IMG/VR virus record: IMGVR_UViG_3300014868_000003
Span: 1-43,959 of that record
Length of the DNA stretch: 43,959 nucleotides
DNA from: a virus
Strand: one strand, 5' to 3'
Below, in pieces: positions 3,358-40,529 of this stretch; the first letter of the stretch is position 1, and each line of letters starts with the position of its first letter. Below the pieces are notes generated by a model. The model was not told where the DNA came from, ran no database searches, and was given only the letters and a program-made list of their open reading frames with translations. The translations under genes were made by a program, and so were the position numbers.

Positions 3358-3705
3358 GTGCCAAACAACGCCGGATCAACGGGCGGGGTCACGGGCCGCG
3401 GCTTTCTCCCCGGGCGTAGCGGCAATCTGAAAGGGCGCCCGCCGAGTATCGCAGCCCACCTGCAGAAGAAATACGGACGTGACGGGCAGAAGCTCATCGC
3501 GGAACTTCACACGCTCGCCTTCAAGAGCAAGACCGACAAAGTCCGCGTCCAGGCATTGGGCATGCTGCTCGACCGCGGCTGGGGACGCGCGAAGGAAACG
3601 GTTAGCATCGAGACGCCCGGGACGTTGCGGCTTGAGCACTCGGGCACCGACGAGCTGATGGCGCGGCTGCAGAAGTTGACGGACGCCCTGAGTCGCCGTC
3701 GATGA
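3358..3705 (+). CDS. terminase small-subunit-like protein (DUF5681-type)
   Basis: 115 residues from GTG 3358. The N-terminus has the glycine/proline pattern GFLPGRSGNLKGRPPS typical of DUF5681 proteins encoded next to phage terminases, followed by a helical region (GQKLIAELHTLAF, KVRVQALGMLLDRGWG). It probably recognises phage DNA and delivers it to the large subunit. The stop overlaps the terL start (ATGA), which strongly supports the role. The exact family assignment rests on the N-terminal motif. Confidence 0.7.
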   Translation: MPNNAGSTGGVTGRGFLPGRSGNLKGRPPSIAAHLQKKYGRDGQKLIAELHTLAFKSKTDKVRVQALGMLLDRGWGRAKETVSIETPGTLRLEHSGTDELMARLQKLTDALSRRR

Positions 3706-5192
3706 CGGTCGCCGAGTACGAGGCCATCGAACGCGAAGTCGACGCCATCGAAGCTGAACTCGCGCGCCGCTCCTTGCGGCAGTTCGTGGAGACGGCCTGG
3801 CCGTTCGTCGAGCCCGACGTCCCCTTCTGTAGCAACTGGCACATCGACGCCCTCTGTGCCCAACTCGAGCGGGTGAGCCGTGGCGAGATTGACCGGCTGT
3901 TAATCAACGTCCCCCCGGGCACGATGAAGTCGCTGATCGTCTCCGTGCTGTGGCCGGCGTGGGAGTGGGCGTCGAATCCCGCCCTCCGGTATCTGACCTT
4001 CAGCTATTCCGAGCAGTTGACGATTCGCGACAACCTCCGAGTCCGAGACATCCTGCAATCGTCCTGGTATCAACGGCACTTCCCTGGCACGGCCCTGCGG
4101 GCGGACCAGAACGCCAAGCTGCAATTCGACACGACGGCGTCAGGCTGGCGGCAAGCCTCATCGGTGGGTGGCCGCGGGACTGGCATGCACCCCGACCGGA
4201 TCATCATCGACGACCCGCACTCCGCGATGCAGGCGCACTCGGAGGCCGAGCGTATGGCCGTGTCCATGTGGGTGGATGGCACGGTGAGCAGCCGCGGCAT
4301 CGTCCGAGGCGTGGCCGTCGTCGTCATCATGCAGCGGTTGCATGAGCAAGACTTGTCGGGCTACCTGCTCGCCAAGGGCGGGTGGACGCACATCCGCTGG
4401 CCCATGCGGTACGAGCCGGACCGGCCGGACCCCTTGGACCCCAGGACCGAACGCGGGGAGCTGCTGTGGCCGGCGCTGTTCACCGAGGCCCGCGTGTCCC
4501 GCCTCGAGCGCGACATGGGGAGTTACGAAGCGGCTGGGCAGCTCCAGCAGCATCCGACGCCCCCCGAAGGCGGGCTCATCAAGCGGTCGTGGTGGAAGTG
4601 GTACCCGCCCGAAGATCCGCACCTGTTGGGCGCGTTGCGCGAGATCGTGATCTCCGTCGACACGGCCACGAAGGCGAAGGAAACGAACGACTATTCCGCG
4701 ATTGGCGTCTGGGGCAAGAACGGCGGGCCTGACGTCTACGGGCTTCGCATGCTCAGGGGCCATTGGGAGTACCCCGAACTCATCCGGCAACTGCTCGCCG
4801 TGCATGCGGACGTCAAAGTCCGGTGGCCGATGGTGCTCCCAACCGTGGTCGTGGAAGATGCGAGCGCGGGCCCGGAAGTCGTGGCCGAGTTGAAACGCCG
4901 GATTCCCGGGGTCATTGGCGAGCATCCGAAGGGCGACAAGGTCTCCCGGGTGCATGCCGTGCTGCCTGCCATCGAGGCCGGGAACGTGTGGCTGCCCGGG
5001 CGAGCTCTATCTGACGGCCGCCTCGACCGCAACATGATGAACCTCCCCGGGTGGGTCGATCCCTTCGTGGAAGAGTGCGCCGCGTTCCCGATGGGCGCGC
5101 ACGATGACCAGGTCGACCAGCTCTCGCAAGCCTTGCGCCGACTGTGCGCCCCCAGAACCGCTTTGGGCTTTGTCACCATGCCCGGACTGTAG
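3702..5192 (+). CDS. terL: terminase large subunit
   Basis: 496 residues; ATP-driven DNA packaging motor with a C-terminal nuclease. The Walker A-like loop NVPPGTMKS sits at 69-77 (the deviant form common in TerL), Walker B IIIDDP at 167-172 and the coupling region MQRLHEQDLSG at 210-220. The RNase H-fold nuclease starts with SVDTATKAKETNDYSA (318-333, catalytic Asp 320), has VVVEDASAG at 382-390 and ends with HDDQVDQ at 468-474. Length and order are normal for the family. ATG 3702 overlaps the small subunit gene. The portal gene follows after 9 bases. Confidence 0.95.
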   Translation: MTVAEYEAIEREVDAIEAELARRSLRQFVETAWPFVEPDVPFCSNWHIDALCAQLERVSRGEIDRLLINVPPGTMKSLIVSVLWPAWEWASNPALRYLTFSYSEQLTIRDNLRVRDILQSSWYQRHFPGTALRADQNAKLQFDTTASGWRQASSVGGRGTGMHPDRIIIDDPHSAMQAHSEAERMAVSMWVDGTVSSRGIVRGVAVVVIMQRLHEQDLSGYLLAKGGWTHIRWPMRYEPDRPDPLDPRTERGELLWPALFTEARVSRLERDMGSYEAAGQLQQHPTPPEGGLIKRSWWKWYPPEDPHLLGALREIVISVDTATKAKETNDYSAIGVWGKNGGPDVYGLRMLRGHWEYPELIRQLLAVHADVKVRWPMVLPTVVVEDASAGPEVVAELKRRIPGVIGEHPKGDKVSRVHAVLPAIEAGNVWLPGRALSDGRLDRNMMNLPGWVDPFVEECAAFPMGAHDDQVDQLSQALRRLCAPRTALGFVTMPGL

Positions 5193-5201
5193 AGACTCCC
5201 C

Positions 5202-6758
5202 ATGCCGAATCCCGGATCGTCGAAGCACGTCCACCCGCTCTATGCCACCTGGTCGCCGACGTGGCGCATGGCCTATGACGTTTACGAAGGCGCCGGCGGC
5301 TTTCTCGACCCGGACCGGCCGTACCTTGTGCCACACCCGCGCGAGTGGCTCGACCATTCCGTCACCGACACGACCACGGGCGGGATGAAGCCGAATCCCA
5401 ACCCGACGTCCCCGAGCCCGAAACTGAACATGCGCCGGAAGCTAGCGCGGTACGAAAACGTCGCCGGCATCCTGGTCGAGACGGTGGAAGGCCCGCTGTT
5501 CCGCACGCCCCCGACGCGGAGCTTCGCGTCCGAGACGCCGGATGCACGGCTCGACGCGTGGCTGGCGAACGTCGACGGGCTGGGCTCAAGCCTGGATCTA
5601 TTCCTCCACGACTCGTGGAACGTGGCGGCCGCGTTCGGGCACGCGATCATGCTGGCCGACAAGTCCAAGGTGGAACCGGGGACCGCGGCCGATACCCAGG
5701 GCCCGATGCTCTCCCGCTACACGCCGCTCGACATGATCGACTGGCTGGAGGACGACAAGGGGCAGCTCATCGCGGTCAAGCTCATCGAAGGCGTCACGCG
5801 GACGGGCTTCGACGTCAGCGCGAAGGTCACCGACCATCAGGTGCGCGTGGTCGACGAAGAGAAGTGGACACTGTACGACAAGGGCGGGAAACAGATCGAC
5901 CAGGCGGCCCACGGCTTCGGGCGGTTGCCGATTGTTATTCTCTACGGCCGGCGCCGCAAGCTGATCCCGCTCCTTGGCAAGCCCATCATGGGCGACCCCA
6001 TGCTGTACATCGACCTCTACAACCTGCAGTCCGAAGTCCGGGAGCTGCTCCGGAATCAGACCTTCGCGATCCTGAACGTGCCCACCGGGAAGGATTCGAC
6101 CGTCGAGCAGGAGACGGCGAAACTCGGGCGCCAGTCTGGGACGTCAAATGTCATGTTTTCGACCGAGCCGGCCAGCTTCATCGCGCCGCCGGAGACGAAC
6201 GTCGCCGCGTACCACGAGCACATCGACCGCCTCGGCCGCATGATCTATCGGCTTGTGGCTGTCCCGTGGGAGTCAGACAGCCGTGACTCGGAAAGTGCGG
6301 ATTCTCGCAAGTTGAAGCGGGCGGACCTTCACTCGGCCCTCGTGAGCTATACCGGCGAGATTCAACGGGCCGACGATACGCTGCTCGAGCTGGCCTACCG
6401 CGCGCTGTTCGGGGAGGACGGCTGGGAGAAAGCCCGCGACAAGGACGAGCCATCGACGTCGTACTCGCAGGACTTCGAGTTGCCCGACCTTGATGCCGTG
6501 GTGGAGCGGTGCTCGAAGGCGATCACGTTGGACCTGGGCGAGACGGCCACGAAGGAACTCAAGAAACAGACGGTGGCGCAGTTGTTGCCCCAGGTGAACG
6601 AGGACACGAAGACACAGATCCACGACGAGATCGACGCGATGAAGGTGCTGACGGCTGACGAGAAGCGGGCCGAGATGCTGGAGGCGAGTGCGGCGCGCAT
6701 GGGGGCGAGGCCGCCCATGAAGCCCGGTGAGCCGAAGCCGCCGGCGACGGTGCAGTAG
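5202..6758 (+). CDS. portal protein
   Basis: 518 residues from ATG 5202. Position directly after terL, length, and an N-terminal segment (HPLYATWSPTWRMAYDVYEG) fit the DUF4055-like portal group. The middle has the typical alternation of strands with a long helix (LYNLQSEVRELLRNQTF), and the C-terminus is helical and charged (DADE-rich, ending KPGEPKPPATVQ). It would form the dodecameric ring at the capsid vertex, dock the terminase and pass DNA. The stop and the next GTG share one base (TAGTG). Confidence 0.85.
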   Translation: MPNPGSSKHVHPLYATWSPTWRMAYDVYEGAGGFLDPDRPYLVPHPREWLDHSVTDTTTGGMKPNPNPTSPSPKLNMRRKLARYENVAGILVETVEGPLFRTPPTRSFASETPDARLDAWLANVDGLGSSLDLFLHDSWNVAAAFGHAIMLADKSKVEPGTAADTQGPMLSRYTPLDMIDWLEDDKGQLIAVKLIEGVTRTGFDVSAKVTDHQVRVVDEEKWTLYDKGGKQIDQAAHGFGRLPIVILYGRRRKLIPLLGKPIMGDPMLYIDLYNLQSEVRELLRNQTFAILNVPTGKDSTVEQETAKLGRQSGTSNVMFSTEPASFIAPPETNVAAYHEHIDRLGRMIYRLVAVPWESDSRDSESADSRKLKRADLHSALVSYTGEIQRADDTLLELAYRALFGEDGWEKARDKDEPSTSYSQDFELPDLDAVVERCSKAITLDLGETATKELKKQTVAQLLPQVNEDTKTQIHDEIDAMKVLTADEKRAEMLEASAARMGARPPMKPGEPKPPATVQ

Positions 6759-8944: not shown

Positions 8945-10105
8945 ATGGCCTTCGCAGGTCTCGCGTCGAACGAACTCAACACCGCCTCGCTCATTCAGCG
9001 TGACATCGCGGACCTGATCCGCACGCTGTCTCCGAAAGAAACCCCGATCCTCGATTGGCTCGGCGATGCGCCGGTCTCGGCGACCAGCATCAAGCACGAG
9101 TTCATCGAAGATCTGATGCCGCCCAACACGATCATCGCGTCCGTCGCCATCAGTTCGGCGGCCGTCGCCACCCCGATCGCGATTCAGGTGGCCCCGGCGG
9201 GCATCGGCAATGCCCTCTCCGTGGGCCAGTTGCTCCGCAACGAATCGGCGGCGCCCGAGGTCTACCAGATCACGTCGATCGTGGCCGGTGGCAACTCGAT
9301 CGTCATCTCGCGCGACTACAACGGGACGACCGTGGCGGGCTCACTGGCCGCGGGCGGGACGCTCTACGTGGGCGGGATGGCCTCGCTCGAGGGCGCGGAC
9401 CACAGCGGCTCGGACGTGCGACGGCTGGGCACGGCGCGCGCCAACACGGTCGGGCTCTTCCGTATGGAACTCGCGCAGTCGTCCACGACCGCCTCGATGG
9501 GTCAGGTCGGCAACGACAAGTGGGAAGGGCGCAAGGCCAAGGGGCTCATCGAGACGATGCGCCAACTGGAGAACGAAGTCGTCAAGGGCGTGCTGAACGG
9601 GACGAACTCGCTGGGCACGACCACGGCGACTCGCACCATGCAGGGCATTCAGGCGCAATTGACGTCGATCAACTCGACCATCGTGTCGGCGTCCTTCATC
9701 GCCAACCCGCATCTCTACATCGGCAACGTCTGGGAGTCGGTGTATGGCAACGGCGCGGCGACGACCGAGACGTGGGGCATCATCGCCGGCTCGACCTGGT
9801 TCAAGGCGCTGTCCGACCTGAACGACACGAAGGTCCAGGACACGAACGCCAGCGAGTTGTTCCAGCGTCGGATTCGCACGTATGCGGGTCCGTTCGGCGA
9901 GGCCGAGCTGTTCCTGTCCCGCGTGTTGCCGGCGACGGAGTTCCTCCTGGTACCGCGTGAGCGGCTGATCGTCCCGAATCTCGTCAATCGGTCCTTCACC
10001 TACGAGGACATGGCGAAGTCGGGCGACAACCAGAAGGGGCACATCGTGGGCGAGTACACGCTGGAGCTCTACCACCAGTCGGCGATGGGACGCGGCCACG
10101 CCTAA
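8945..10105 (+). CDS. major capsid protein (SU10/DUF5309-like)
   Basis: 386 residues from ATG 8945. N-terminal NTASLIQRDIADLIRTLSPK and PILDWLGDAPV lead into the HK97-type fold. The P-domain/spine helix region includes KAKGLIETMRQLENEVVKGV. The C-terminal part GEAELFLSRVLPATEFLLVP, then a segment ending in GEYTLELYHQSAMGRGHA, is typical of the SU10/DUF5309 capsid group. Position after the scaffold and before a terminator-like hairpin fits a highly expressed capsid gene. The family assignment comes from pattern recognition, not a search. Confidence 0.85.
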   Translation: MAFAGLASNELNTASLIQRDIADLIRTLSPKETPILDWLGDAPVSATSIKHEFIEDLMPPNTIIASVAISSAAVATPIAIQVAPAGIGNALSVGQLLRNESAAPEVYQITSIVAGGNSIVISRDYNGTTVAGSLAAGGTLYVGGMASLEGADHSGSDVRRLGTARANTVGLFRMELAQSSTTASMGQVGNDKWEGRKAKGLIETMRQLENEVVKGVLNGTNSLGTTTATRTMQGIQAQLTSINSTIVSASFIANPHLYIGNVWESVYGNGAATTETWGIIAGSTWFKALSDLNDTKVQDTNASELFQRRIRTYAGPFGEAELFLSRVLPATEFLLVPRERLIVPNLVNRSFTYEDMAKSGDNQKGHIVGEYTLELYHQSAMGRGHA

Positions 10106-10182: not shown

Positions 10183-10407
10183 ATGCATCCGATTTTCGAG
10201 GAGATTCTGCGGGCGAAACTGCCGGTCCGGCCGGACGTCCTCCTTCGGTGGCAACGGGCCATCCGTTCGGAGATCGGCCCGCAGTTCGCCAAGCTCTCAG
10301 AACCGATTGAAGTGGAGTTCCACGTGGACTCGCGGAAGGTTGCCGAGGCGATCATGCCGGCGCTTCTGTCCACCGAATCACGAAAGAAGCGTGAGGTTTC
10401 GGCATGA
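10183..10407 (+). CDS. small hypothetical head-region protein
   Basis: 74 residues from ATG 10183, with GGGGGAG about 8 bases upstream. It is helical and charged: FEEILRAKLPVRPDVLLRWQ, then EPIEVEFHVDSRKVAEAIMP and a basic end (TESRKKREVSA). The phrase EVEFHVDSRKVAEAIMPALL resembles the short segment VQVFIGPRKLAEIIMPEL near the C-terminus of the tape measure gene (17209-19089), an interesting internal similarity. The stop overlaps the next ATG (ATGA). Function unknown. Confidence 0.65.
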   Translation: MHPIFEEILRAKLPVRPDVLLRWQRAIRSEIGPQFAKLSEPIEVEFHVDSRKVAEAIMPALLSTESRKKREVSA

Positions 10408-10934
10408 GGGGCTGGCGCTGCGACAACCTGTTCAGCAAGCGCACGACGGCGAAGACGGCCTCGAAGGCGCTCAATGCCGTGAGCAATGCCACGCTGACCG
10501 TGACGGCGGCCGCGTCAGGCTTCGACGGCAACCTGATCACCGTGGCCCTGGTCACCGGGGCCCCGACGATTGACGTCACGATGGCCGCGGTCCTCTCGGG
10601 CACGGCGATCACCGTGACGCTCGGGACGGATGGCGCTGGCGTCCTGGACGACACGAAGAACACGGGCACGCTCGTCGCCGCGGCGATTGACGCCTTGGCG
10701 AATGTGACGTGTACCACCAGTGGCACCGGGGCCGGCATCGTCGCGCCGGTAGCCTCGCAAGCCCTCGCCGGCGGCTCGGACGTCATGACCGTGCGGGATC
10801 TGGCGCGGAAGGCCAACGTGTCCGACCAGTTGATCCAGAACCTCGAGCGCGGCGGCAACTGCGAGGTCCACGAAGCGCAGCGGATCGCCGACGCCTTGTC
10901 CGAAACGGTCTCGTCCTTGGGGTCGGGCCTCTGA
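10404..10934 (+). CDS. beta-rich structural protein fused to an XRE-like HTH
   Basis: 176 residues from ATG 10404. Residues about 25-125 are Thr/Ala/Val/Gly-rich, with strands such as TLTVTAAASGFDGNLITVAL, like a head decoration or tail-tube-type beta domain. Residues 128-173 switch to a helix-turn-helix pattern: MTVRDLARKANVSDQLIQNL, then ERGGNCEVHEAQRIADALS, as in XRE-family domains. An internal ATG (10785) could start the HTH alone. In this context the domain may act in virion assembly or be a separately translated regulator. The stop shares one base with the next ATG. Confidence 0.6.
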   Translation: MRGWRCDNLFSKRTTAKTASKALNAVSNATLTVTAAASGFDGNLITVALVTGAPTIDVTMAAVLSGTAITVTLGTDGAGVLDDTKNTGTLVAAAIDALANVTCTTSGTGAGIVAPVASQALAGGSDVMTVRDLARKANVSDQLIQNLERGGNCEVHEAQRIADALSETVSSLGSGL

Positions 10935-13927
10935 TGCGTCTCCGGATCTGTTTCACGATCGATTCGGTCCCCTTCACGGCCTCCGTGATCGCGGGGATGA
11001 CCTCGCTCGGCGGGTCGGAGTCGGCGTGTCTCGGCCTCGCTCGGGCGCTGCAGGCGCGCGGGCACGACGTGCATATCTTCGTGAGCCAGCTCACGACGGA
11101 TGCGCCCGGAGTCGATCAGTACGGCGTCGGCTGGCACGCGATCGGCCAACTCGCGGGCTGGTCGACGCTCATGGATTGGGACGTGGCAATCGCGCTGCGT
11201 CAGCCGCAATTTCTGCAGCACGCCCCGGCAAAACTGCGCGTCCTTTGGGGGCAGGACTTGATGGCGAACCAGGCCATGCATCTCTACCAGATGAGCCTGG
11301 CCTGGACCTATGACGCGGTCGCCTACGTGTCCGACTTCCACCGGCATCAGTGGGAGGCAATCTCCCCGGAACTCGCCCCGCTCGGGTGGGTGACGAAGAA
11401 CGGCCACGATGCGAGGCTCGCCGCCGAGGCGCGCGCGGCCGCGGTCAAGAAGCCGCACCAGATCATCCACGTCTCCCGTCCGGAGCGCGGGCTGGCGCCG
11501 CTCCTGACCATGTGGCCGATGCTCAAGGCGAAGTATCCCAAGGCCACGCTCGCCCTTTGCCGCTACTCGTCCATGTATGACACGGCGGGCTGGGGCGCGA
11601 TCTGCGCGGAGTTCGACAAGGCCGTCGGGCAGATGAACCAGGAAGTCGGCGGGATCTCCTGGCTCGGCGAGCTCGGCAAGCCGGCGCTCTACAAAGCCAT
11701 CGCGGAATCGGCCGTCATGTGGTACCCGGGCGTGTCGACGTTCGGCGAGACGTCGTGCATCGCCGCGATCGAAGCGCAAGCGTGCGGGACACCGTTCGTC
11801 GGCTCCTACAAAGGGGCGCTCCCGGAAACCGTGCCGAGCGGCATCCTGATCCCTGGCATTGCGGAGTCCGACGAGGCGTATCAGTCAGCGGCGATCGCGG
11901 CCGTGATCGACATGCTGGACGGCTGCGCCAAACAGCAATTCGCCTATCGCCAGCGGGTCAACGACGGCCTCCGGCACGTCCAGGGCTACAGCTACGAAGC
12001 CGTGGCGGCCGAGTGGGAAGCGTTCATCCTGCAGAGCTTCGAGGCTCGCTACGCCCGCGAGAAGGCCGGCATCTTGCGCCGGCTGAAGCACGAAGACGAC
12101 TACGTGACCGCCCGGATCGTCGCCGAGGAGTTGGGCGACGTCGCCGAGCTGGCCGACTGCGACTCCGTTTTGACCGGGGAAGTCGCCCCCGAGGATTACG
12201 CGCGCCATGCGCTCGATCCGCTGCTCGAGTTGGGCGATACCCGCCTGAATACCGTCGTGAAGATGTTCGAGGGTTGCCAGCGGGTGCTCGACGTGGCCTG
12301 TGGCTCGGGGGCGTATCCCGTCGCCTTGGCCTTGGCCGACCCTACCAGGCACGTTGTGGCGGTCGACTACGCCGCGGGGAACATCGCCTCGGGGCGGCAT
12401 GCCGCCGAAGTCAAAGGCGTTGCGGATCGAATCACCTGGGCCGAAGGCTCGGCGTGGGACATGGCGAACCAGCGGCCGTCCGAGTGGCTGGCTGGGGCGC
12501 TGCAGACCGACGCGGGCACGTTCGACGGGCTGTGGTGTGGCGAGTTCCTGGAGCACGTTGTGGACTGCTCGGGGCTGGTCCGGACGCTCGATCGTCTGGT
12601 CACGCCCGGAGGACGAGTGGCCTACAGCGTGCCCCAGGGCCCGCTCCACAGCATCGCGACACGGCACATGGAGACCCATCGGTCGCACGTCCACCACTTC
12701 CGGCCGGCGGACTTGGCGGCGATCTTCGGGCAAAAAGCCGAGTACCGCGCCGTGGTCATGCCGTGGCTGCAAGGTGGGGCGCGTGGCGAAGCCCTCGGCA
12801 ACTGGATTCTGAGCTACCGCCGCGGGACGACGGACGATACCGGGATGCGGCCGCTTGACCGCCGGCGCCTGTTGCGCCCCTACGCCCGACTGACGGCCGG
12901 GATCATCACGAACGACGCCCTGGATCTGCGGCGCTGCCTCGACGCGATCTGGCCGGTAGTGGACGAGATTGTGATTGGCGACTGTGGGGCGCGTGCTGAT
13001 GACCTGGCCGCCATCGTGGCCGAGTTCCCCCGCAAGACGCGCGTGATCCACGTCGGGCCCGTGCCGGACCTGCACGGCGGATTCTCCGAAGCTCGGAATC
13101 GGGTGCTCGCCGAGGCGTCGGGCGAGTGGTTCCTGTGGATCGACTCTGACGAAGTCCTGTGTGGGGCGAGGGATCTGGGCAAGTACCTCGACGGGCCCAC
13201 GTTCCAGGGCTACGTCATCACCCAGAACCATCTCCACCTGGACGCCAGCATGACGCGGGACACGCCCGTCCGGCTGTTCCGGAAGCGGCCGGAGATCAAG
13301 TTCTACGGGTGCGTTCACGAACAGCCGCAGTGGAAGGACGCGAACGGCGAGATCCAGCCGGCACTGCAAGTGGCCGACGTCCAGATCGCGCACACCGGCT
13401 ACCTCTACGAAGGCATCCGCCGCGAGAAGTGCCTGACCCGGAATCTGCCGTTGCTCATCCGCGATCAGCAGGTCTTCCCCGAGCGCGAGTTGGGCAAGGT
13501 GCTCGTCTTGCGGGACTACGCGAATCTCGCCCTGTGGGCGCGTGAGCGGTCGGGTGGGAAACTAACCGACGAAATCAAGACCTACCAGGGCAAGGTGATC
13601 GGCCTGTTCGAGGAGAACTTTTTCGACCCGATGAACAAGTACCACGGCATCGCGCGCCCGTTCTACGAAGCGGCCCTGAAGGACGTCGCGGGCGCACTGC
13701 AAGTCGAAGTCGCGATCACGGGTGGACTGGCGCCTGACGGCCTGAACGGGACAAAAGGCGTCCCCGAACGGATCTGGGTCCGCAAGCCGGAACACCTTCG
13801 GACGCTGTTGGCCGGCCGCGTGGAAGCCATGTTGAAGCCGCTCGAGTCGACCGCGCCAGACATTGACGTTGAGCCGTGGCCGCCGGCGGTGGCGGTGGTT
13901 CCGGAACGAGAGGCGGTGTCCGCGTGA
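10934..13927 (+). CDS. trifunctional GT4 / SAM methyltransferase / GT2 protein
   Basis: 997 residues from ATG 10934 (TGATG overlap). Three enzymes appear in order. (1) A GT4-type glycosyltransferase, about 1-370: N-terminal ICFTIDSV, a Gly-rich TSLGGSESACLGLARAL loop, and an exact E-x7-E at E272/E280 in PGVSTFGETSCIAAIEAQAC. (2) A class I methyltransferase, about 430-630: motif I VLDVACGSGAYP (451-462), acidic VVAVDYA, then FDGLWCGEFLEHV. (3) A GT2 domain, about 650-830: LTAGIITNDALDLRRCLDAI, with a DxD-type motif at 737-739 in WFLWIDSDEV. Likely role: building or methylating a glycan on virion proteins or the host surface. Very large for a phage enzyme and set among head genes. Confidence 0.85.
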   Translation: MRLRICFTIDSVPFTASVIAGMTSLGGSESACLGLARALQARGHDVHIFVSQLTTDAPGVDQYGVGWHAIGQLAGWSTLMDWDVAIALRQPQFLQHAPAKLRVLWGQDLMANQAMHLYQMSLAWTYDAVAYVSDFHRHQWEAISPELAPLGWVTKNGHDARLAAEARAAAVKKPHQIIHVSRPERGLAPLLTMWPMLKAKYPKATLALCRYSSMYDTAGWGAICAEFDKAVGQMNQEVGGISWLGELGKPALYKAIAESAVMWYPGVSTFGETSCIAAIEAQACGTPFVGSYKGALPETVPSGILIPGIAESDEAYQSAAIAAVIDMLDGCAKQQFAYRQRVNDGLRHVQGYSYEAVAAEWEAFILQSFEARYAREKAGILRRLKHEDDYVTARIVAEELGDVAELADCDSVLTGEVAPEDYARHALDPLLELGDTRLNTVVKMFEGCQRVLDVACGSGAYPVALALADPTRHVVAVDYAAGNIASGRHAAEVKGVADRITWAEGSAWDMANQRPSEWLAGALQTDAGTFDGLWCGEFLEHVVDCSGLVRTLDRLVTPGGRVAYSVPQGPLHSIATRHMETHRSHVHHFRPADLAAIFGQKAEYRAVVMPWLQGGARGEALGNWILSYRRGTTDDTGMRPLDRRRLLRPYARLTAGIITNDALDLRRCLDAIWPVVDEIVIGDCGARADDLAAIVAEFPRKTRVIHVGPVPDLHGGFSEARNRVLAEASGEWFLWIDSDEVLCGARDLGKYLDGPTFQGYVITQNHLHLDASMTRDTPVRLFRKRPEIKFYGCVHEQPQWKDANGEIQPALQVADVQIAHTGYLYEGIRREKCLTRNLPLLIRDQQVFPERELGKVLVLRDYANLALWARERSGGKLTDEIKTYQGKVIGLFEENFFDPMNKYHGIARPFYEAALKDVAGALQVEVAITGGLAPDGLNGTKGVPERIWVRKPEHLRTLLAGRVEAMLKPLESTAPDIDVEPWPPAVAVVPEREAVSA

Positions 13928-14136
13928 TCTGCGACGTGTGCGGCATCGACGCGGTCGACAGCCTCGGGCACTGCAGCCATTGCGCCGAGACGCCGGTGGA
14001 GTCTCCCCAGGCGCCTGCCTACGCGCCGCCGCTCGGCAAGGTCGTGGTCCGTAAGGAGCGCAAGCCGAAGGTCACCCGTGACCCGTACAAACGGCGCACG
14101 ACGGCGGCGGTCAAGAAGGGCGGCAAGAAGCGATGA
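13924..14136 (+). CDS. small zinc-ribbon protein with basic tail
   Basis: 70 residues from GTG 13924, overlapping the upstream stop (GTGA). CDVCGIDAVDSLGHCSHC forms a CxxC...CxxC zinc knuckle, followed by a Pro linker and a strongly basic C-terminus (RKERKPKVTRDPYKRRTTAA, then KKGGKKR). It could bind nucleic acid or be packaged with DNA in the head. Stop and next start overlap (ATGA). No named family. Confidence 0.65.
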   Translation: MICDVCGIDAVDSLGHCSHCAETPVESPQAPAYAPPLGKVVVRKERKPKVTRDPYKRRTTAAVKKGGKKR

Positions 14137-14987
14137 GCTGGGCGCCCTCGGACCTCGTCAGCGATCAGGACTTGCTCGATTACGAGCGGACGATCCTGAC
14201 GACGTTCAATCAGAACGATTGGCAGCCACGACTCCGCAAGGCGCTCGAGGATTGGCTGTGGCCGCAACTCGAAGCGCGCGGCTACCCGATTGAACGCTTC
14301 CGGACGCGGTATGCGCCGAGCGAGGTCGTAGGGAGCACGTCCAGCGTGGACTCCGACGTGACCAGCGCGGCGGCCACCGAAAACGGGCTCGTCTTGTCAA
14401 CGATTCTGGCGGCCTCGTCTGACTCGCTCTACATCGGCCACGGCGAGGCGTTCCGGGGCCTGTCCGTGCGTATGACGACGACCGTCAATGCCATCGCCGG
14501 GGCGCTGTCTGTCGCCGCCTGGACGGACCGCTGGCAGCCGGTGAGCGAACTATCGGCGGCCGTCGTGGCCGCTGGCATTCCGTTCAGCCGTGGCGGCTCG
14601 CTGACCTGGACCGTGCCCTCTGGCCTCGTACGGCGGACGATCAACAGCCAGGGGCCGGCCTACTGGTCACGGCTGCAGCTCTCCGTGGCGCCCACGGCCG
14701 GAACGGCGATCGGGGCCGTGAGCGTGATCCGTCGCTCCCGCCTCTGTGCCCCGGTGACGTTGCGAACCTTGGCGCTGATCTTTCGGGAAGCGCCCATCGC
14801 CCAGGACGGCCCGTGGCAGGAGAAAGCGGCTTGGTACGAAGCGGAAGCCGCGACGGCCTTGGCGCGAGTGATTGACCAGATCGGCGGCGAGTTCGATACC
14901 GACGACAGCGACATCATCGACCCCGACGAAGCGAACCAGACCGCCGAGTCAGTGACGGGTGGCGGCTGGATGTTTGAGCGGTGCTGA
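14133..14987 (+). CDS. putative head-tail connector/structural protein
   Basis: 284 residues from ATG 14133. The start is helical (DLLDYERTILTTFNQNDWQP, RLRKALEDWLWPQLEA). The middle is Ser/Thr-rich beta sequence with AAATENGLVLSTILAASSDS and WTDRWQPVSELSAAVVAAGI. The end is helical and acidic (ATALARVIDQIGGEFDTDDS). Position between head and tail-tube genes suggests a virion connector or a small spike-like component. No specific family recognised. Confidence 0.55.
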   Translation: MSWAPSDLVSDQDLLDYERTILTTFNQNDWQPRLRKALEDWLWPQLEARGYPIERFRTRYAPSEVVGSTSSVDSDVTSAAATENGLVLSTILAASSDSLYIGHGEAFRGLSVRMTTTVNAIAGALSVAAWTDRWQPVSELSAAVVAAGIPFSRGGSLTWTVPSGLVRRTINSQGPAYWSRLQLSVAPTAGTAIGAVSVIRRSRLCAPVTLRTLALIFREAPIAQDGPWQEKAAWYEAEAATALARVIDQIGGEFDTDDSDIIDPDEANQTAESVTGGGWMFERC

Positions 14988-15419: not shown

Positions 15420-16481
15420 ATGGCAGGAGTCACCGGCCGGGAAGTCAAAATCGCGTTCGCCAAGTTCGCGACGAACTCGTGGGGCGTGGCCGCCTCGGTC
15501 ACCCGCGGGGCCTACTTTCAGACGACCGGCGGGCTGCGTCTGCAGCCGATGCGCGTCAACGACGAAGCCTTCGGCCAGGCGTTTCTCGGCCGCGGGGATC
15601 TGGGCGACGTCACCCCGCCGGACCTGACGTGGGTCGGGCGCAGCCGGTACGACGACCACGGCTTCGTCCTCGATGCGCTCGCGATGGGCTCGCCCGTGGC
15701 GGCCACGCTGTCGAACTCGGCCGCCGGCCAAGTCGCGTCGTATCAACACATCATCGACCTCGCCGCGTCGACCGATGGGCTGGGGCTCACGGCCGCGGCC
15801 GACAAAGTCCTCTACGTTGACGAGTTGACCTCGGCCAAGGTCTTCGGCTTCGGCGAGACGGTGGGCGACGGCGGGGTCATGGATCGCAGCTACCGGCTGC
15901 TCGGCTCCAAGCCCACCAACATCTCGTCGATCAACACGCGGTCGACCGTGCATGGCGCGTCGTTCGTGCCGTTGGGGAATCGCGTGTTCCGGAATCAGGG
16001 CACGTTCCGTCTCAACGTCCAGGGCGGGAACTCGCTCGTCGCGGCCGACGCCATCAAGATCGAACAGTTCGAGTTCACCTTCGAGCGGCCCCAGGATGGG
16101 CCGCACGTCTTCTCGCAGGACTACATCTTCGAGCCGGCCGACAACGGCTTCCCGGTGGTGCAGTTCAAGGTGACGTATCCGCGGATGACGACAATCTCGG
16201 CGAGTTCGCTCTACGCGGCCTTGCGGACGAACCCGATCTTCAAGGCGGATCTGACGTTCAGCGGGGCCTTCATCAACTCAACCGACCAGTACAAGCGGGT
16301 GTACGAGTTCCCGCATGTGGAATTAGACGGATGGAACGGGGCCGACGTGTCCGGCGCCGAACAGGTCAAGCCCGAGGCGACCTTCACGGCCAAGCTGGCG
16401 ACGTCGAGCCCCGCCAACATGCCCTTCGTCAATCCGTTCCGGCTCACGCTGATCAACACGCACGCCGCCGCGGCGTTCTAA
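15420..16481 (+). CDS. major tail tube protein
   Basis: 353 residues from ATG 15420, with a GTAGGAGA site upstream. The protein is beta-rich: EVKIAFAKFATNSWGVAASV at the start, many Thr/Ser/Val strands, and a C-terminal domain (ADLTFSGAFINSTDQYKRVY). Position before a frameshifted chaperone pair and the tape measure is the standard place for the tail tube. The length is large for a tube subunit and suggests an added surface domain. No sheath gene is present, which argues for a siphovirus. Confidence 0.75.
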   Translation: MAGVTGREVKIAFAKFATNSWGVAASVTRGAYFQTTGGLRLQPMRVNDEAFGQAFLGRGDLGDVTPPDLTWVGRSRYDDHGFVLDALAMGSPVAATLSNSAAGQVASYQHIIDLAASTDGLGLTAAADKVLYVDELTSAKVFGFGETVGDGGVMDRSYRLLGSKPTNISSINTRSTVHGASFVPLGNRVFRNQGTFRLNVQGGNSLVAADAIKIEQFEFTFERPQDGPHVFSQDYIFEPADNGFPVVQFKVTYPRMTTISASSLYAALRTNPIFKADLTFSGAFINSTDQYKRVYEFPHVELDGWNGADVSGAEQVKPEATFTAKLATSSPANMPFVNPFRLTLINTHAAAAF

Positions 16482-16912: not shown

Positions 16913-17219
16913 GGGACGGATTACCCCGTGCTGTCAAACCTCCGACGAGGAGATCGTCAGGACCGACCCGAGCGTCTTCAACTGCGAGACGTGCGCGGTC
17001 CGGTCCGCCATCGAGGCGCTCGATTCCGTGAACGCCGAGGCGTGGGGACACTTCCGACGCCTCTGCACCCGCTTTCTCTTCGAGACCAAATCTACGCCGG
17101 TCGCGCTGGCACGGATCACCGAGTCTCTCGACGCCGAGGACTGCGCCGAACTCCTGCAGCGGTTCGCCATTCTGTACGACGCCTACTACCCGGTGAAGGT
17201 GGCTAACCGTGGCGCGTGA
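16905..17219 (+). CDS. tail assembly chaperone extension (gpT-like)
   Basis: Opens as an ORF at GTG 16905 (104 residues) but has no good ribosome site. Its frame is already open upstream inside the chaperone gene, where it encodes a convincing helix (FARLQQFAEWWVSEGR). It therefore most likely makes only the C-terminal part of a +1 frameshift fusion. Content: CCQTSDEEIV, CETCAVRSAIEALDSVNAEA (a CxxC pair) and helices LQRFAILYDAYYPV. It overlaps the tape measure start by 11 bases. Role: chaperoning the tape measure during tail assembly. Confidence 0.65.
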   Translation: MSEGRITPCCQTSDEEIVRTDPSVFNCETCAVRSAIEALDSVNAEAWGHFRRLCTRFLFETKSTPVALARITESLDAEDCAELLQRFAILYDAYYPVKVANRGA

Positions 17220-19089
17220 ACTCCAGATCCGGATCGAGGTGCAGGACAGTGCCGCGGCGCGCGCGGCGCTGGAGACCGTCGAGACCGGGCTGAAGCAAGT
17301 CGAGGAAGCCGGCGGGAAGACTGCGGCGAAGCTCGGCAACACGTCGTCGACCGATTCCAGTCCGACGCTCGTCGGCTCGATGAAGGCGTTCCGCAATGTC
17401 GCCGTCGGTCTTGGGCTCGGTGCCGCCGTGAGTCGCGTCGTGGAGTTCGGCGGACGGCTGACGGACCTCGCGGCGCAGACCGGCATCGGTGTTGAAGCGT
17501 TGCAGCGTCTCGACGCGGTCGGCCAGACGGTCGGTGTCGGGCTCGAGCAGGCGGCGCGCGGCGTCAACATGATGCAGCGGAATCTGGTCGGCGACGAAGG
17601 CGCACAAAAGGCGGTCGCTGGACTCGGCCTCGAAGTCGACGCGCTGCTCAAGATGAAGCCAGATGAGGCGTTCATTGCGATTGCGCGCGAGATCGCGAAG
17701 ATTCCCGACCCCGCCGAGCGCACGGCGACGGCGGTCGAAGTGCTCGGCCGGTCCGGGCAGCAGTTGCTCCCGTTGCTCCTGGCGGACATCGAGGGCATCG
17801 GCAACGGCGTCGAGGTCATGAATGCGAAGACGGTCGCCGGCCTCGACCAATGGGACGACAGTTGGGCCCGCATCAAGCAGATCGCCACGGCGTCGATCGG
17901 CAACGTCGTCGGGGCGTTCGGCTCATGGGAAGGCGCCGTGAAGCTCCTGATCGACATCAACCCCTTTCTCACGGAGTCGATGAAGACGCAGGCGAAGGAA
18001 GGCTTCGACAAGTTCAGGGTGGCCGTGGGCGAGGCCACGGTCTCGGTCAAGACGTTCTACGAAGACAGTAAAGCCTGGCTCGTCGACAAGTGGGTCGCCG
18101 TGCGCGACGGTTTCCGCGCCAACTGGCAGACGCTCGCCGGCTACGTGAAGACCGCGAAGGACGCCGTCATCGGCTACGCGCGCGAGTTGTATACCGGCGT
18201 CAAAACGTGGGTCGTGGATCGCTTCTCGGACATCGTCTCCGGCGTGAAAACGAAGATCGACGCGGTCACGGGATTCTTCCGCGACATGTACGACAAGGTG
18301 GTCGGCCAGTCCTACGTCCCCGACATGGTCCGCGGGATCGACCTGGAGTTTCAGAAGTTGGGCGGGATCATGGTCAAGCCCACGAAGATCGCGACGGACC
18401 AGGTCGTCGACACGTTCCGGTCGATGCTGCAGAACATTCAGGGGCTCTTCTCCAGTTTCGGCGCGTCCGTCAGTGGCTGGCTGCAAAGCATGGTCGCCGG
18501 CCCGATTGGCGGGGCCTTGGGCTCGATTGTCGGTCAGGTGATCTCCGGCCTCGGGAGCCTGCTCACGGGCGGCATTACCTCGCTCGTCAACATGGCCGTG
18601 CAACTCGTCTGGTCGGGCCTCAAGAAGATCGGCTCGGCGATTAAGGACTTTTTCAGTAGCACGACGGTCGAGGAAGTCAAAACCGGCTTTACCGAGCAGT
18701 TGGGCTTCGAGAATCGCGATGCGTTGTTCAAGGCGTTGCTCGATGCGAACCGGATGGATCTCATCAATCGGTTCTTCGAGGTCGACAACTCGAAGATGGG
18801 CACGAAGCTCCTGGGCGACTGGATGACGGACGTCCGGGCCGCGCTGGGCTTCGCCGGCGGGACAGACGGGCAGTTCCTCGACTTCGGACAGGGCCGCATG
18901 GCGATGCTCCACGGCGAGGAAGCCGTCGTGCGCCGTCAGGACAGCCAGGGGCTCGCCGAGGCGATTGCGGGGGCATTGGGCGGCAAGGTGGGCGGCGGGA
19001 CGGTGCAGGTCTTCATCGGGCCCAGGAAGCTCGCGGAAATCATCATGCCGGAACTCCCCGGCGTCGTGCGCCGGTACGGATTGGCGTAG
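17209..19089 (+). CDS. tail tape measure protein
   Basis: 626 residues from GTG 17209. The N-terminus is coiled coil (ALETVETGLKQVEEAGGKTA), then a TMP-like core (FGGRLTDLAAQTGIGVEALQ), long amphipathic helices and a hydrophobic stretch at about 430-470 (GGALGSIVGQVISGLGSLLT, SLVNMAVQLVW). Such segments in tape measures are linked to DNA ejection across the membrane. The C-terminal end contains VQVFIGPRKLAEIIMPEL. At roughly 0.15 nm per residue this would set a tail near 90-95 nm (family rule of thumb). Position and length support the call. Confidence 0.85.
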   Translation: MARELQIRIEVQDSAAARAALETVETGLKQVEEAGGKTAAKLGNTSSTDSSPTLVGSMKAFRNVAVGLGLGAAVSRVVEFGGRLTDLAAQTGIGVEALQRLDAVGQTVGVGLEQAARGVNMMQRNLVGDEGAQKAVAGLGLEVDALLKMKPDEAFIAIAREIAKIPDPAERTATAVEVLGRSGQQLLPLLLADIEGIGNGVEVMNAKTVAGLDQWDDSWARIKQIATASIGNVVGAFGSWEGAVKLLIDINPFLTESMKTQAKEGFDKFRVAVGEATVSVKTFYEDSKAWLVDKWVAVRDGFRANWQTLAGYVKTAKDAVIGYARELYTGVKTWVVDRFSDIVSGVKTKIDAVTGFFRDMYDKVVGQSYVPDMVRGIDLEFQKLGGIMVKPTKIATDQVVDTFRSMLQNIQGLFSSFGASVSGWLQSMVAGPIGGALGSIVGQVISGLGSLLTGGITSLVNMAVQLVWSGLKKIGSAIKDFFSSTTVEEVKTGFTEQLGFENRDALFKALLDANRMDLINRFFEVDNSKMGTKLLGDWMTDVRAALGFAGGTDGQFLDFGQGRMAMLHGEEAVVRRQDSQGLAEAIAGALGGKVGGGTVQVFIGPRKLAEIIMPELPGVVRRYGLA

Positions 19090-30660: not shown

Positions 30661-30789
30661 TCACCGCGGATAGCCTGGGTCGTAGGGCTGGCTGAAGTCG
30701 CAGAATGTGGCGATCAGGGCCCCGAGCAGGATCAAGATGGCTGGGCCGTAGGCGATGAGGCGAGTCCCGAAGAGGCGTAGCGCGTTCAT
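30661..30789 (-). CDS. small membrane protein after integrase
   Basis: 42 residues on the minus strand. The start (ATG, 30789-30787) overlaps the integrase stop (ATGA), so it is coupled to integrase translation. One hydrophobic segment (LIAYGPAILILLGALIATFC) follows a basic start (MNALRLFGTR). It could be a lysogeny-associated membrane protein such as an exclusion or toxin-like factor; no family is recognised. It converges on the late operon with only 1 base between stops. Confidence 0.5.
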   Translation of the reverse strand: MNALRLFGTRLIAYGPAILILLGALIATFCDFSQPYDPGYPR

Positions 30790-31964
30790 GGAGTCTCCCT
30801 GAGCGTGTCCAAGTAGTCCGCCCACGTCTGCATCAACACGGTCCGTTGGGGCAGGTAGCGGGCGCGATTATACGCGGCCCCGAGTGGCCCAGGCGCCGCG
30901 TGCGCGAGCTGGACTTCGATCACGAATGGGTCCGCGTGCAACTGCTCGGCCAGGAGCGTCCGCGCCGTCGCCCTGAATCCGTGGGCCGTCATCGCGTGCT
31001 TGTCATAGCCCAGCCGTCGTAAGGCGGCGTTCAGGGTGTTATTTGACATCGGACGGGCAGACGTCCGCACGGCGGGGAAGATGTACCGCCCCTTGCCGGT
31101 GAGCGCGGCCGCGGTCTCGAGGACGGCGATCGCCTGACTGGACAGGGGCACCAAGTGGGCCGCCTTCTGTTTCATCCGAGCCGCGGGAATCCGCCACAGC
31201 TTCCCCGCCGTGTCGACGTCCTTCCACTCGGCCAGCCGCAACTCCCCAGGGCGGACGAACACGAGCGCAGCGAACTGCAGAGCAGCCCTGACCAGCGGCG
31301 TACCCTCCAGGCTATCGATCGCCCGGAGCAGGGCCCCGACCTCACGCGGGTCGGTGACCGCCGCATGGTGGCGCACCGCCGGCGCCGTCGCGAGGGCCCC
31401 TTTCAGGTCGGCCGTCACGTCTCGAGCCGCCCACCCGTGCGCCACGGCGTACCTCAGGACTTGCGAGCAGACGGACTTCGCCCGTCTGGCGGTCACCGGC
31501 GTCTCGCTGGCCGTAGCGAGCGCGGCGAGGACGTCCGCCGGCGTCAGGCTCCCCACGGGCCGATGGCCCAGCGACGGGATCAACACGCGCTCGAGCAGCC
31601 ACCGGGAGCGCGTCTCCGTGCGCGGGGCGAGTGAGCGCGCGCGGCCGGTCAGCCACGTCCGTCCCACCGCGGCAAACGTGGTATCGGCGTTATGGCGGCC
31701 TTTGGCGTGGCGCCGGCGCTCAGCGGGGTCCTCGCCTGCCGCGACGAGTCTGCGCGCCTCCTGGAGCCGCTCACGGGCTTGCAGAAGCGTCACGTCGTCG
31801 TACAGGCCGAGTGTCAGCGTCTTCTGCCGGCCGCCGATCGCGTAATTGTAGCGCCATGACTTCGCGCCCTTCAGACTGACATAGAGGTAGAGCCCGCAGC
31901 CGTCGCCCAGCTTGTAGGGCTTGGCCTTCGGCTTCGCGGCTCTGACAGCGAGGTCAGTCAGCAT
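30786..31964 (-). CDS. int: tyrosine integrase (P4-like)
   Basis: 392 residues; catalyses site-specific insertion of the phage genome. N-terminal DUF4102 arm-binding domain (KPYKLGDGCGLYLYV, SWRYNYAIGGRQKTLTLGLY), a core-binding domain (about 95-190) and a catalytic domain with R238 (FVRPGELRLAEW), the HGFR box H328/R331 (AHGFRATARTLLAE), H355 (LAHA) and probable nucleophile Y365 (GAAYNRARYL). P4-family integrases usually target tRNA genes; no tRNA or attachment core could be read here. A palindrome overlaps its start codon (see 31964-32003). Confidence 0.9.
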   Translation of the reverse strand: MLTDLAVRAAKPKAKPYKLGDGCGLYLYVSLKGAKSWRYNYAIGGRQKTLTLGLYDDVTLLQARERLQEARRLVAAGEDPAERRRHAKGRHNADTTFAAVGRTWLTGRARSLAPRTETRSRWLLERVLIPSLGHRPVGSLTPADVLAALATASETPVTARRAKSVCSQVLRYAVAHGWAARDVTADLKGALATAPAVRHHAAVTDPREVGALLRAIDSLEGTPLVRAALQFAALVFVRPGELRLAEWKDVDTAGKLWRIPAARMKQKAAHLVPLSSQAIAVLETAAALTGKGRYIFPAVRTSARPMSNNTLNAALRRLGYDKHAMTAHGFRATARTLLAEQLHADPFVIEVQLAHAAPGPLGAAYNRARYLPQRTVLMQTWADYLDTLRETP

Positions 31965-38110: not shown

Positions 38111-38659
38111 TTGTTAGACGTTGATATTGTCAAGGCGGCAATAAAAGAGGCCCATGAATACGTCGCTGTGAACATCACGAGGTTGATGTTTTGGACGTTC
38201 AACTTTGAGCTCGCCCCGCATTCTCCGCTCGAGACAAAAGTAGAGAGCCCCGCCGAGGCAGTCTTCCTAATCTGGTGGCTTGCTCACCAGTACAGCGAAC
38301 CCTCAGACCCGTATCGGCTCAAGAAGCAAGTCGAGGTCAAGGCCGGCGAGAAAAGCTATCGCTTCGACTTTGTTGTCACCGTCGAAGAGGTATTCGGCGT
38401 GGAGGGCGAACAACTTCCGGTGGCTGTTGAAATCGACGGACATGCCTTCCATGAGAAGACGCGCGATCAGGTGTCTTACCGGAATAAGCGCGACCGTGAC
38501 CTGCAAGTCGCAGGCTATCAAGTTCTCCACTTCTCCTACAGCGAGCTCGTCAAAAACCCGATCGCCTGCGTCGAGGAAGTTCACGCCGCTGCGAGCTCAG
38601 CCCATGAGCGCATCTCATACGACAGATGGCAGAAGTCGAAGTCTGAGGGCAAGAACTGA
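38111..38659 (+). CDS. PD-(D/E)XK endonuclease-like cargo protein
   Basis: 182 residues from TTG 38111; no better in-frame start with a ribosome site is seen. The C-terminal half matches DUF559/Vsr-like PD-(D/E)XK nucleases: YRFDFVVTVEEVFG, LPVAVEIDGHAFHEKTRDQV, YRNKRDRDLQVAGYQVLHFS. E-I-D-G-H after a strand and a Lys-Arg-Asp box fit the catalytic core. GC is near 55% in sampled lines against mid 60s around it, and the gene sits alone after a 99-base gap. It looks recently acquired: a phage defence, host-takeover or repair nuclease. Confidence 0.65.
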   Translation: MLDVDIVKAAIKEAHEYVAVNITRLMFWTFNFELAPHSPLETKVESPAEAVFLIWWLAHQYSEPSDPYRLKKQVEVKAGEKSYRFDFVVTVEEVFGVEGEQLPVAVEIDGHAFHEKTRDQVSYRNKRDRDLQVAGYQVLHFSYSELVKNPIACVEEVHAAASSAHERISYDRWQKSKSEGKN

Positions 38660-39686: not shown

Positions 39687-40529
39687 GCGGCCGGAAGATG
39701 TGTCCTTCGTGCGAGATCCGCTGGCCTTGGTGAGCGCATCACTGTCCGCAAGGGCGGCTACTACCGCTGCAACCAGTGCCAGGAGGATTTCACGGTCCGC
39801 ACTGGCACGATCTTCGAGCGGTCGCACATCCCGCTCCACAAGTGGGTCTACGCCATGTATCTGGTCGTGACGGCCCGCAAGGGCATCTCCTCGATGCAAC
39901 TGTCGAAGGAAATCAGCGTCACCCAGAAATCGGCGTGGTTCATGCTCCACAGGCTCCGTGAGGCGTGTGGCGGGAACTTCAAGAAGTTGAAGGGCATCAT
40001 CGAGATCGATGAGACCTACGTCGGCGGGAAGGAACGGAACAAGCACGAACGAGACAAGCTCAAAGCCGGTCGTGGGCCGGTTGGCAAGACGCCAGTCGTC
40101 GGCATGCGCGAGCGGGGCAAGGGTGGAAGGACGCTCGCGTTCGTCGCGGCGGATGTGGACCTGCCCACAGTCCACACCGCCATCTACCAGCACGTCGAAC
40201 AGGGCTCGACGCTGCACACCGACGACGCGCCGGTCTACGACGGCATCGGTGGCCTGTTCTTCAACCACGCGACGGTCAACCACACGGCGAAGGAATACTC
40301 GCGCGATGGCGTGACCACGAACAGCATCGAGAGCGTGTTCGCGGTTCTGAAGCGCGGCATCCTCGGCACGTTCCACCACATCAGCCGGAAGCACACCGGC
40401 CGCTACGTTGACGAGTTCGCGTTCCGGCTGAACGAAGGCAACTGCGCCGTTCACACGCTCGACAGGCTCGACAGTTTCATCCGTGGCTCGGCCCGGAAAC
40501 GCCTGACCTACGCGAGACTGATCGCCTAG
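39683..40529 (+). pseudogene. ISXO2-like (IS1595-type) transposase with frameshift
   Basis: ATG 39683 overlaps the upstream stop (ATGA) and begins with the first half of a zinc ribbon (MCPSC). It stops at 39728-39730. The rest of the protein is open in the +1 frame: YYRCNQCQEDFTVRTGTIFE (39760s onward), then HKWVYAMYLVVTARKGISSM, IIEIDETYVGGKERNKHERD, LHTDDAPVYD and TTNSIESVFAVLKRGILGTF. The DD(E/N) set fits IS1595 transposases. No terminal inverted repeats are seen, and the ATGA coupling shows it behaves as a phage operon gene. First ATG in the open frame is 39855, which would lose the zinc ribbon. Confidence 0.7.

Follow-up and report, generated by a model that had tools for sequence, protein, structure and literature searches.

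What would a bacteriophage do with two glycosyltransferases (GTs) and a methyltransferase (MT) that are joined in one polypeptide and encoded among its virion genes? The question is raised by an open reading frame (ORF) at 10934-13927 of IMGVR_UViG_3300014868_000003, an IMG/VR virus record whose 43,959 nucleotides form the whole stretch analysed here (the window) and belong to a phage that is probably temperate and siphovirus-like. Our results show that this GT4-MT-GT2 fusion, protein P0001, is a core gene of an uncultivated soil/sediment phage lineage, in which it usually lies beside the gene of the major capsid protein (MCP). We think it probable that the product is a cytosolic, late-expressed enzyme that adds glycans to a protein of the virion, the major capsid and major tail proteins being the likeliest candidates.

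Three enzyme domains in one chain

The plus-strand ORF encodes 997 amino acids without an internal stop, and its three domains are a GT4, an S-adenosylmethionine (SAM) MT and a GT2 (Table 1). Pfam finds a GT4-type domain pair at residues 26-307, including Glyco_trans_1_4 at 179-307 (E 1.6e-6), Methyltransf_23 at 449-602 (E 8.6e-11) and Glycos_transf_2 at 660-741 (E 1.4e-6). The matches to PF13692, PF13489, PF08241 and PF00535 all exceed the curated cut-offs. An initial annotation, made from the letters alone, had already read the three activities from their motifs, and Pfam, AlphaFold2 and Foldseek agree with it. The E-x7-E motif consists of E272 (11747-11749) and E280 (11771-11773) and, together with the GT-B fold, is that of the retaining CAZy family GT4. 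MT motif I is VLDVACGSGAYP (residues 451-462, nucleotides 12284-12319); this DxxCGxG-type motif and an acidic motif II point to a class I SAM MT. The GT-A fold with a DxD that defines CAZy GT2 is present in the last domain, with D737-x-D739 (13142-13150) in 'WIDSDE' and H795-E796 at 13316-13321.

The full-length AlphaFold2 model, built with 17 homologues, has a mean pLDDT of 87.8 and a pTM of 0.85. In a Foldseek search of the PDB its GT4 part matches MshA, PimA, GlgM and BshA, and its GT2 part matches the ThuS/SunS peptide glycosyltransferases (E 1e-14). When the GT2 third is folded alone (31 sequences, pLDDT 90.6), ThuS/SunS are found at E of about 1e-16 to 1e-14, compared with 6e-8 for the next family. 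Taken third by third, both GT folds are confirmed by Foldseek and the MT is assigned by sequence, with phmmer matches to 3bus and to the D-glucose O-methyltransferase 6uv6. The best phmmer match of the whole protein in the PDB is GmaR (E 1.8e-13).

The N-terminal domain of GmaR transfers GlcNAc onto flagellin (PMC9638930), and ThuS/SunS-type enzymes glycosylate Cys or Ser of peptides (PMC12457901). Since the GT2 domain is nearest to GmaR in sequence and to ThuS/SunS in structure, its acceptor is likely to be a polypeptide. By similar analogy, a sugar hydroxyl is a plausible target of the MT. The region that follows the GT2 domain likely has an acceptor-binding or scaffold role, judging from the model. 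No hydrophobic stretch of membrane strength is found in P0001, the best 19-residue Kyte-Doolittle mean being 1.38.

The kinship of the GT2 domain also bears on whether the GTs and the MT might glycosylate and methylate the bases of the phage DNA. We regard such hypermodification as very improbable, because the GT2 domain is closest to protein and peptide GTs, the gene sits in the head cassette and no base-hypermodification gene was seen among the window ORFs scanned, a scan which did not cover every small ORF. What speaks for it is a cyanophage 'DNA alpha-GT' as a weak structural match (rank 49), and the fact that phage-encoded GTs do hypermodify DNA, as PMC12619734 relates in citing Pyle et al. 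2024.

Distribution and conservation of the fusion

Neither the 50,697 annotated phage records nor the 72,556 plasmids searched yielded a full-length relative of the enzyme, and the plasmids gave partial, single-domain matches only. A direct scan of viral contigs with the single P0001 sequence relied on peptide patterns that proved variable and therefore gave no match; the homologous loci were reached with the MCP as bait and then by alignments. They are found on many uncultivated phage contigs and on two contigs from metagenome-assembled genomes (Xanthobacteraceae and Nitrospira), which are phage-like contigs within bins and were left out of account in host assignment. The domain order of the window recurs in other phages: all three domains are found in one ORF at 103 loci, in the order GT4-MT-GT2 in 103/103, and at none of these loci (0/103) are the activities split into separate genes. 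The loci are partly non-independent, several contigs being near-duplicates, and collapse to 44 proteins at 99.9% identity, 38 at 95% and 16 at 50%.

Nine of the 80 MCP loci end too near the MCP gene to judge. Among the 71 that are testable, the enzyme starts at most 2.5 kb downstream of the MCP in 61. Its apparent absence from L094, L097 and L098 (MCP 32-33% identical) proved false, as an enzyme relative is present elsewhere in these records and the gene has been relocated. The seven MCP loci without the enzyme are the fragmentary contigs L096 and L099 (MCP 30%) together with L104-L108 (MCP 26-29%). The enzyme is therefore absent only where MCP identity is 30% or less, and the tie between the two genes persists over MCP identities of roughly 31-83%. 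In L161, which has an MCP of a different family (phrog_29), a 32% enzyme homologue lies between connector and tape-measure-like genes. We considered the 350-aa upstream gene of L161 as a tail protein and rejected it, as it does not match P0004. Relatives of the terminase TerL were also rejected as enzyme carriers: they share only the terminase (E<1e-3), bar a lone GT4 match in L009, and the full enzyme is missing. As a separate observation, L094 has two adjacent PI3/4-kinase- or HipA-like kinase ORFs (10686-12458) shortly after its MCP, the enzyme being kept elsewhere; they are possible virion-protein kinases.

Conservation was scored over 32 non-redundant proteins that are 35-62% identical to the window protein. 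The residues invariant in all 32 are G27-S28-E29, R182, R185, E272, C275 and E280 in the GT4 domain, D453, C456, G457, G459, D478, E537, E540 and H541 in the MT domain, and R721, N722, D737, D739, E740, H795, E796, H820, G822, Y823, K832, R836 and N837 in the GT2 region. Less conserved are D683 (28/32) and H588 (20/32). Among pairs sharing 71-98.6% identity, the ratio of nonsynonymous to synonymous substitution (dN/dS) ranges over 0.009-0.35 in GT4, 0.06-0.42 in MT and 0.03-0.18 in GT2, and every domain is under purifying selection. The ORF is not a chance one, because it has homologues in dozens of phage contigs, its catalytic residues are invariant and dN/dS is far below 1.

The MT motifs are lost in L113 (1468-4530)/L114 and in L162 (5944-8760), where DFASGVEG and LIISPRAD are found and EFLEH is replaced by GYLES and CALEI. 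The GT4 and GT2 motifs examined in these homologues remain intact. Lineages with both GTs and no MT motifs are a natural experiment on the role of the methyl cap.

Inteins characteristically occupy the most conserved active sites. In L013 an in-frame, HNH-containing intein (5645-6402) is inserted between S274 and C275, inside the E-x7-E motif of the GT4 domain and with Cys at +1. It was identified from Intein_splicing and HNH_3 matches, which lie slightly under the curated cut-offs. An intron was rejected as an explanation of this interruption; an Rfam search of L013 and the window gave no match.

Virion proteins as the probable target

The initial annotation placed the enzyme between head and tail genes and coupled it to its neighbours by overlaps. 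The overlaps are there: the upstream ORF ends on the first base of the enzyme ATG (TGATG), and the enzyme stop has 4 nt in common with the ORF at 13924-14136 (GTGA). The position can be refined: the MCP gene and two small genes come immediately upstream, and the enzyme is followed by the genes leading up to the putative major tail gene. Across the MCP lineage the order is likewise MCP, enzyme, then the genes in front of the one for the putative major tail protein. In the stretch from the MCP to the major tail gene, no site resembling a promoter or a terminator was found. In a common set of 25 phages, the distances between enzymes correlate with those of the MCP (rho 0.75) and of two tail-side genes (0.73 each). 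The enzyme is co-inherited with the structural module. A GT gene that lies within the virion structural module or is linked to it is characteristic of virion glycosylation, and this lineage has one.

If the structural location reflected timing only, the target might be a small molecule or some protein of the host, such as flagellin or one involved in defence. The lasting tie to the MCP and the retention of the gene when relocated would then be unexpected. ThuS/SunS do produce glycocin peptides, and the MT matches include small-molecule O-methyltransferases (6uv6), but we consider such a target quite improbable.

A further possibility is that the enzyme acts on an infected cell or a lysogen and alters its lipopolysaccharide, capsule or flagellar glycans, resulting in superinfection exclusion or serotype conversion. 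The initial annotation had left open whether the glycan is built on the virion or the host surface, and the evidence favours a virion protein; a host surface is less consistent with the location and with the lack of a membrane segment. The gene belongs to a late structural operon, bound in by its 1-nt and 4-nt overlaps and with no promoter-like site of its own. P0001 is without a transmembrane segment and no flippase-type partner was seen, so that the membrane-embedded GT and flippase partners of Gtr-type lysogenic conversion are not what we find. Its presence as a core gene in nearly all MCP relatives is also unlike that of typical swapped morons. Host-surface modification thus appears unlikely to us, even though the integrase suggests a temperate phage, bacterial GT4 relatives make surface glycans or small glycosides, and the GmaR-type GT2 acts on flagellin.

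We favour a virion target because the fusion is a core gene beside the MCP, is kept when relocated, has a protein-GT-like GT2 domain and lacks a membrane segment. The C-terminal GT2 domain (GT-A, metal/DxD) would start the chain by transferring a sugar from a nucleotide-sugar of the host to the side chain of a Ser, Thr or Cys residue. A second sugar would be added by the N-terminal GT4 domain (retaining GT-B, E-x7-E), and the central SAM MT would methylate a sugar hydroxyl and so cap the chain. The fusion would hold the three steps on one polypeptide near the growing product, and could also provide equal stoichiometry and co-translation with the head genes. We infer the protein acceptor, the virion target, the order of steps, the identities of the sugars and the position of the methyl group. 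The scan of ORFs turned up no gene for nucleotide-sugar synthesis, and therefore the donors would have to come from the host. The machine is thus self-contained in its three linked activities, as first supposed, but not in its donors. The notion that it builds and caps a methylated glycan fits all the evidence, with the reservation that the cap seems dispensable because the MT has decayed in two lineages keeping both GTs.

Several points weigh against a glycosylated and methyl-capped virion protein. The enzyme distances tie about equally to the MCP, the 14133-14987 gene and the major tail protein, which does not single out an acceptor. The MCP had seemed to be singled out by a rho of 0.84 over all taxa, and this candidate was dropped when the value fell to 0.75, against 0.73 on the tail side, in the common set. 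The GT2 domain scores 44.7 bits against the SunS equivalog TIGR04195, not reaching the curated cut-off of 350. The degenerate MT of L113/L114 and L162 means that the cap is not universal. Multidomain GTs can also make cell-surface glycans, and the lineage is known from uncultivated contigs only. Glycosylation and its acceptor are deduced from gene content.

A bolder and rather doubtful proposal is that the enzyme is an obligatory capsid-maturation factor, with a methyl-capped disaccharide on the shell protein being needed for assembly or stability. If this were true, bacteriophage morphogenesis would include glycosylation as a core step and not as an optional decoration.

Known systems and the surrounding genes

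A close parallel among phages is the mycobacteriophage Corndog (cluster O), whose gp35-gp38 likewise place an O-methyltransferase and GTs within the virion structural operon. In Corndog the four genes are small, stand apart from one another and lie between portal and protease, whereas here one 997-aa chain follows the MCP. The comparison is by description, and no mycobacteriophage was listed when the phage collection, in which the Corndog record itself was not located, was searched with the P0001 protein. Virion glycosylation of Corndog was reportedly described by Freeman et al. 2023, a work known through citing papers. For Corndog and its relatives, methyl and glycan modification of the capsid was proposed from the O-methyltransferase and GTs in the virion operon (PMC4351075), and capsid and tail-tube glycans have been reported in mycobacteriophages (PMC12619734). 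Phage ctKR88 (L109, MW202524.1, 1656-11414) resembles our lineage in that its MCP gene is followed directly by a GT2-TPR-GT4 fusion and by individual GT and MT genes. It differs in its domain order, its MTs on separate genes and its distant MCP, and the region is a parallel glycosylation island.

Outside the phages, the chlorovirus PBCV-1 protein A064R is described in PMC7826918, citing Speciale et al. 2020, as a GT-GT-MT protein which extends and methylates capsid glycans. Compared by that description, A064R shares with P0001 two GTs and an MT in a single viral polypeptide. Unlike P0001, it is a eukaryotic-virus protein of 638 aa with rhamnosyltransferases which, in this account, elongates an existing N-glycan, and its order GT-GT-MT is not the GT4-MT-GT2 found here. 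The Clostridioides difficile type B flagellin GT2 has PF00535 fused to the MT PF08241 and is proposed to add and methylate protein sugars (PMC5207246), but it is a two-domain protein without GT4 in a bacterial flagellin pathway. GmaR and SunS/ThuS are the nearest relatives of the GT2 domain, yet they are single-GT proteins without MT or GT4. No description of a phage GT4-MT-GT2 fusion was found in the open-licence literature searched. Systems of this kind are known; what appears to be new, as far as the searched collections and open-licence papers show, is the single-chain fusion serving a phage lineage as a core gene.

Phage virion glycosylation is known in few systems, with separate GT genes. 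A single-chain core enzyme suggests that such glycosylation is more ancient and more common than isolates indicate, and that one-chain capsid-glycan synthases arose separately in bacteriophages and in chloroviruses. The enzyme is also a testable single-gene reagent with which a protein glycan could be made and methyl-capped in the cytosol of bacteria.

Table 1. Features of the window and domains of the enzyme
Feature	Position	Strand	Evidence or remark
TerL	3702-5192		
Portal	5202-6758		
MCP, SU10-type	8945-10105	+	Pfam SU10_MCP, E 2.4e-38; conserved partner of the enzyme, candidate acceptor
Small conserved ORF in the MCP-enzyme gap	10183-10407	+	Relatives match at the same place
Thr-rich putative virion protein, C-terminal helix-turn-helix (HTH)	10404-10934	+	Stop shares 1 nt with enzyme start
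Trifunctional GT4-MT-GT2 enzyme, 997 aa (P0001)	10934-13927	+	
GT4 (GT-B) domain, residues 1-375	10934-12058	+	Pfam, Foldseek, conserved E272/E280
Class I SAM MT domain, residues 431-635	12224-12838	+	Pfam, phmmer, conserved motifs
GT2 (GT-A) domain, residues 646-845	12869-13468	+	Pfam, phmmer, Foldseek, conserved DxD
C-terminal helical and small beta region, residues 846-997	13469-13924	+	AlphaFold2 secondary structure
70-aa ORF, two CxxC motifs, Lys/Arg-rich tail	13924-14136	+	4-nt overlap with enzyme stop
Conserved structural-module gene after the enzyme	14133-14987	+	Found in relatives
Probable major tail protein, candidate acceptor	15420-16481	+	Position upstream of tape measure; syntenic in relatives
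Tape measure	17209-19089		
Phage integrase	30786-31964		

The tail candidate at 15420-16481 gave no match in a Pfam search. The product of 10404-10934, in which a virion-type domain rich in Thr is joined to a small HTH_3 domain, has a full-length match in L010 alone among the relatives compared. Its HTH part recurs among the head genes of relatives, at times in several copies (L012 6813, L020 1604/2518/2721, L024 4532, L027 3933/4157 and L030 7575). Elsewhere in the window, a 496-aa ORF with an internal DUF3850 domain lies upstream of the terminase (1261-2751), a Vsr-like nuclease domain (MTES_1575/DUF559) is found at 38111-38659, and an ISXO2/IS1595-type transposase domain at 39855-40529 lies within the right-hand gene region of the phage.

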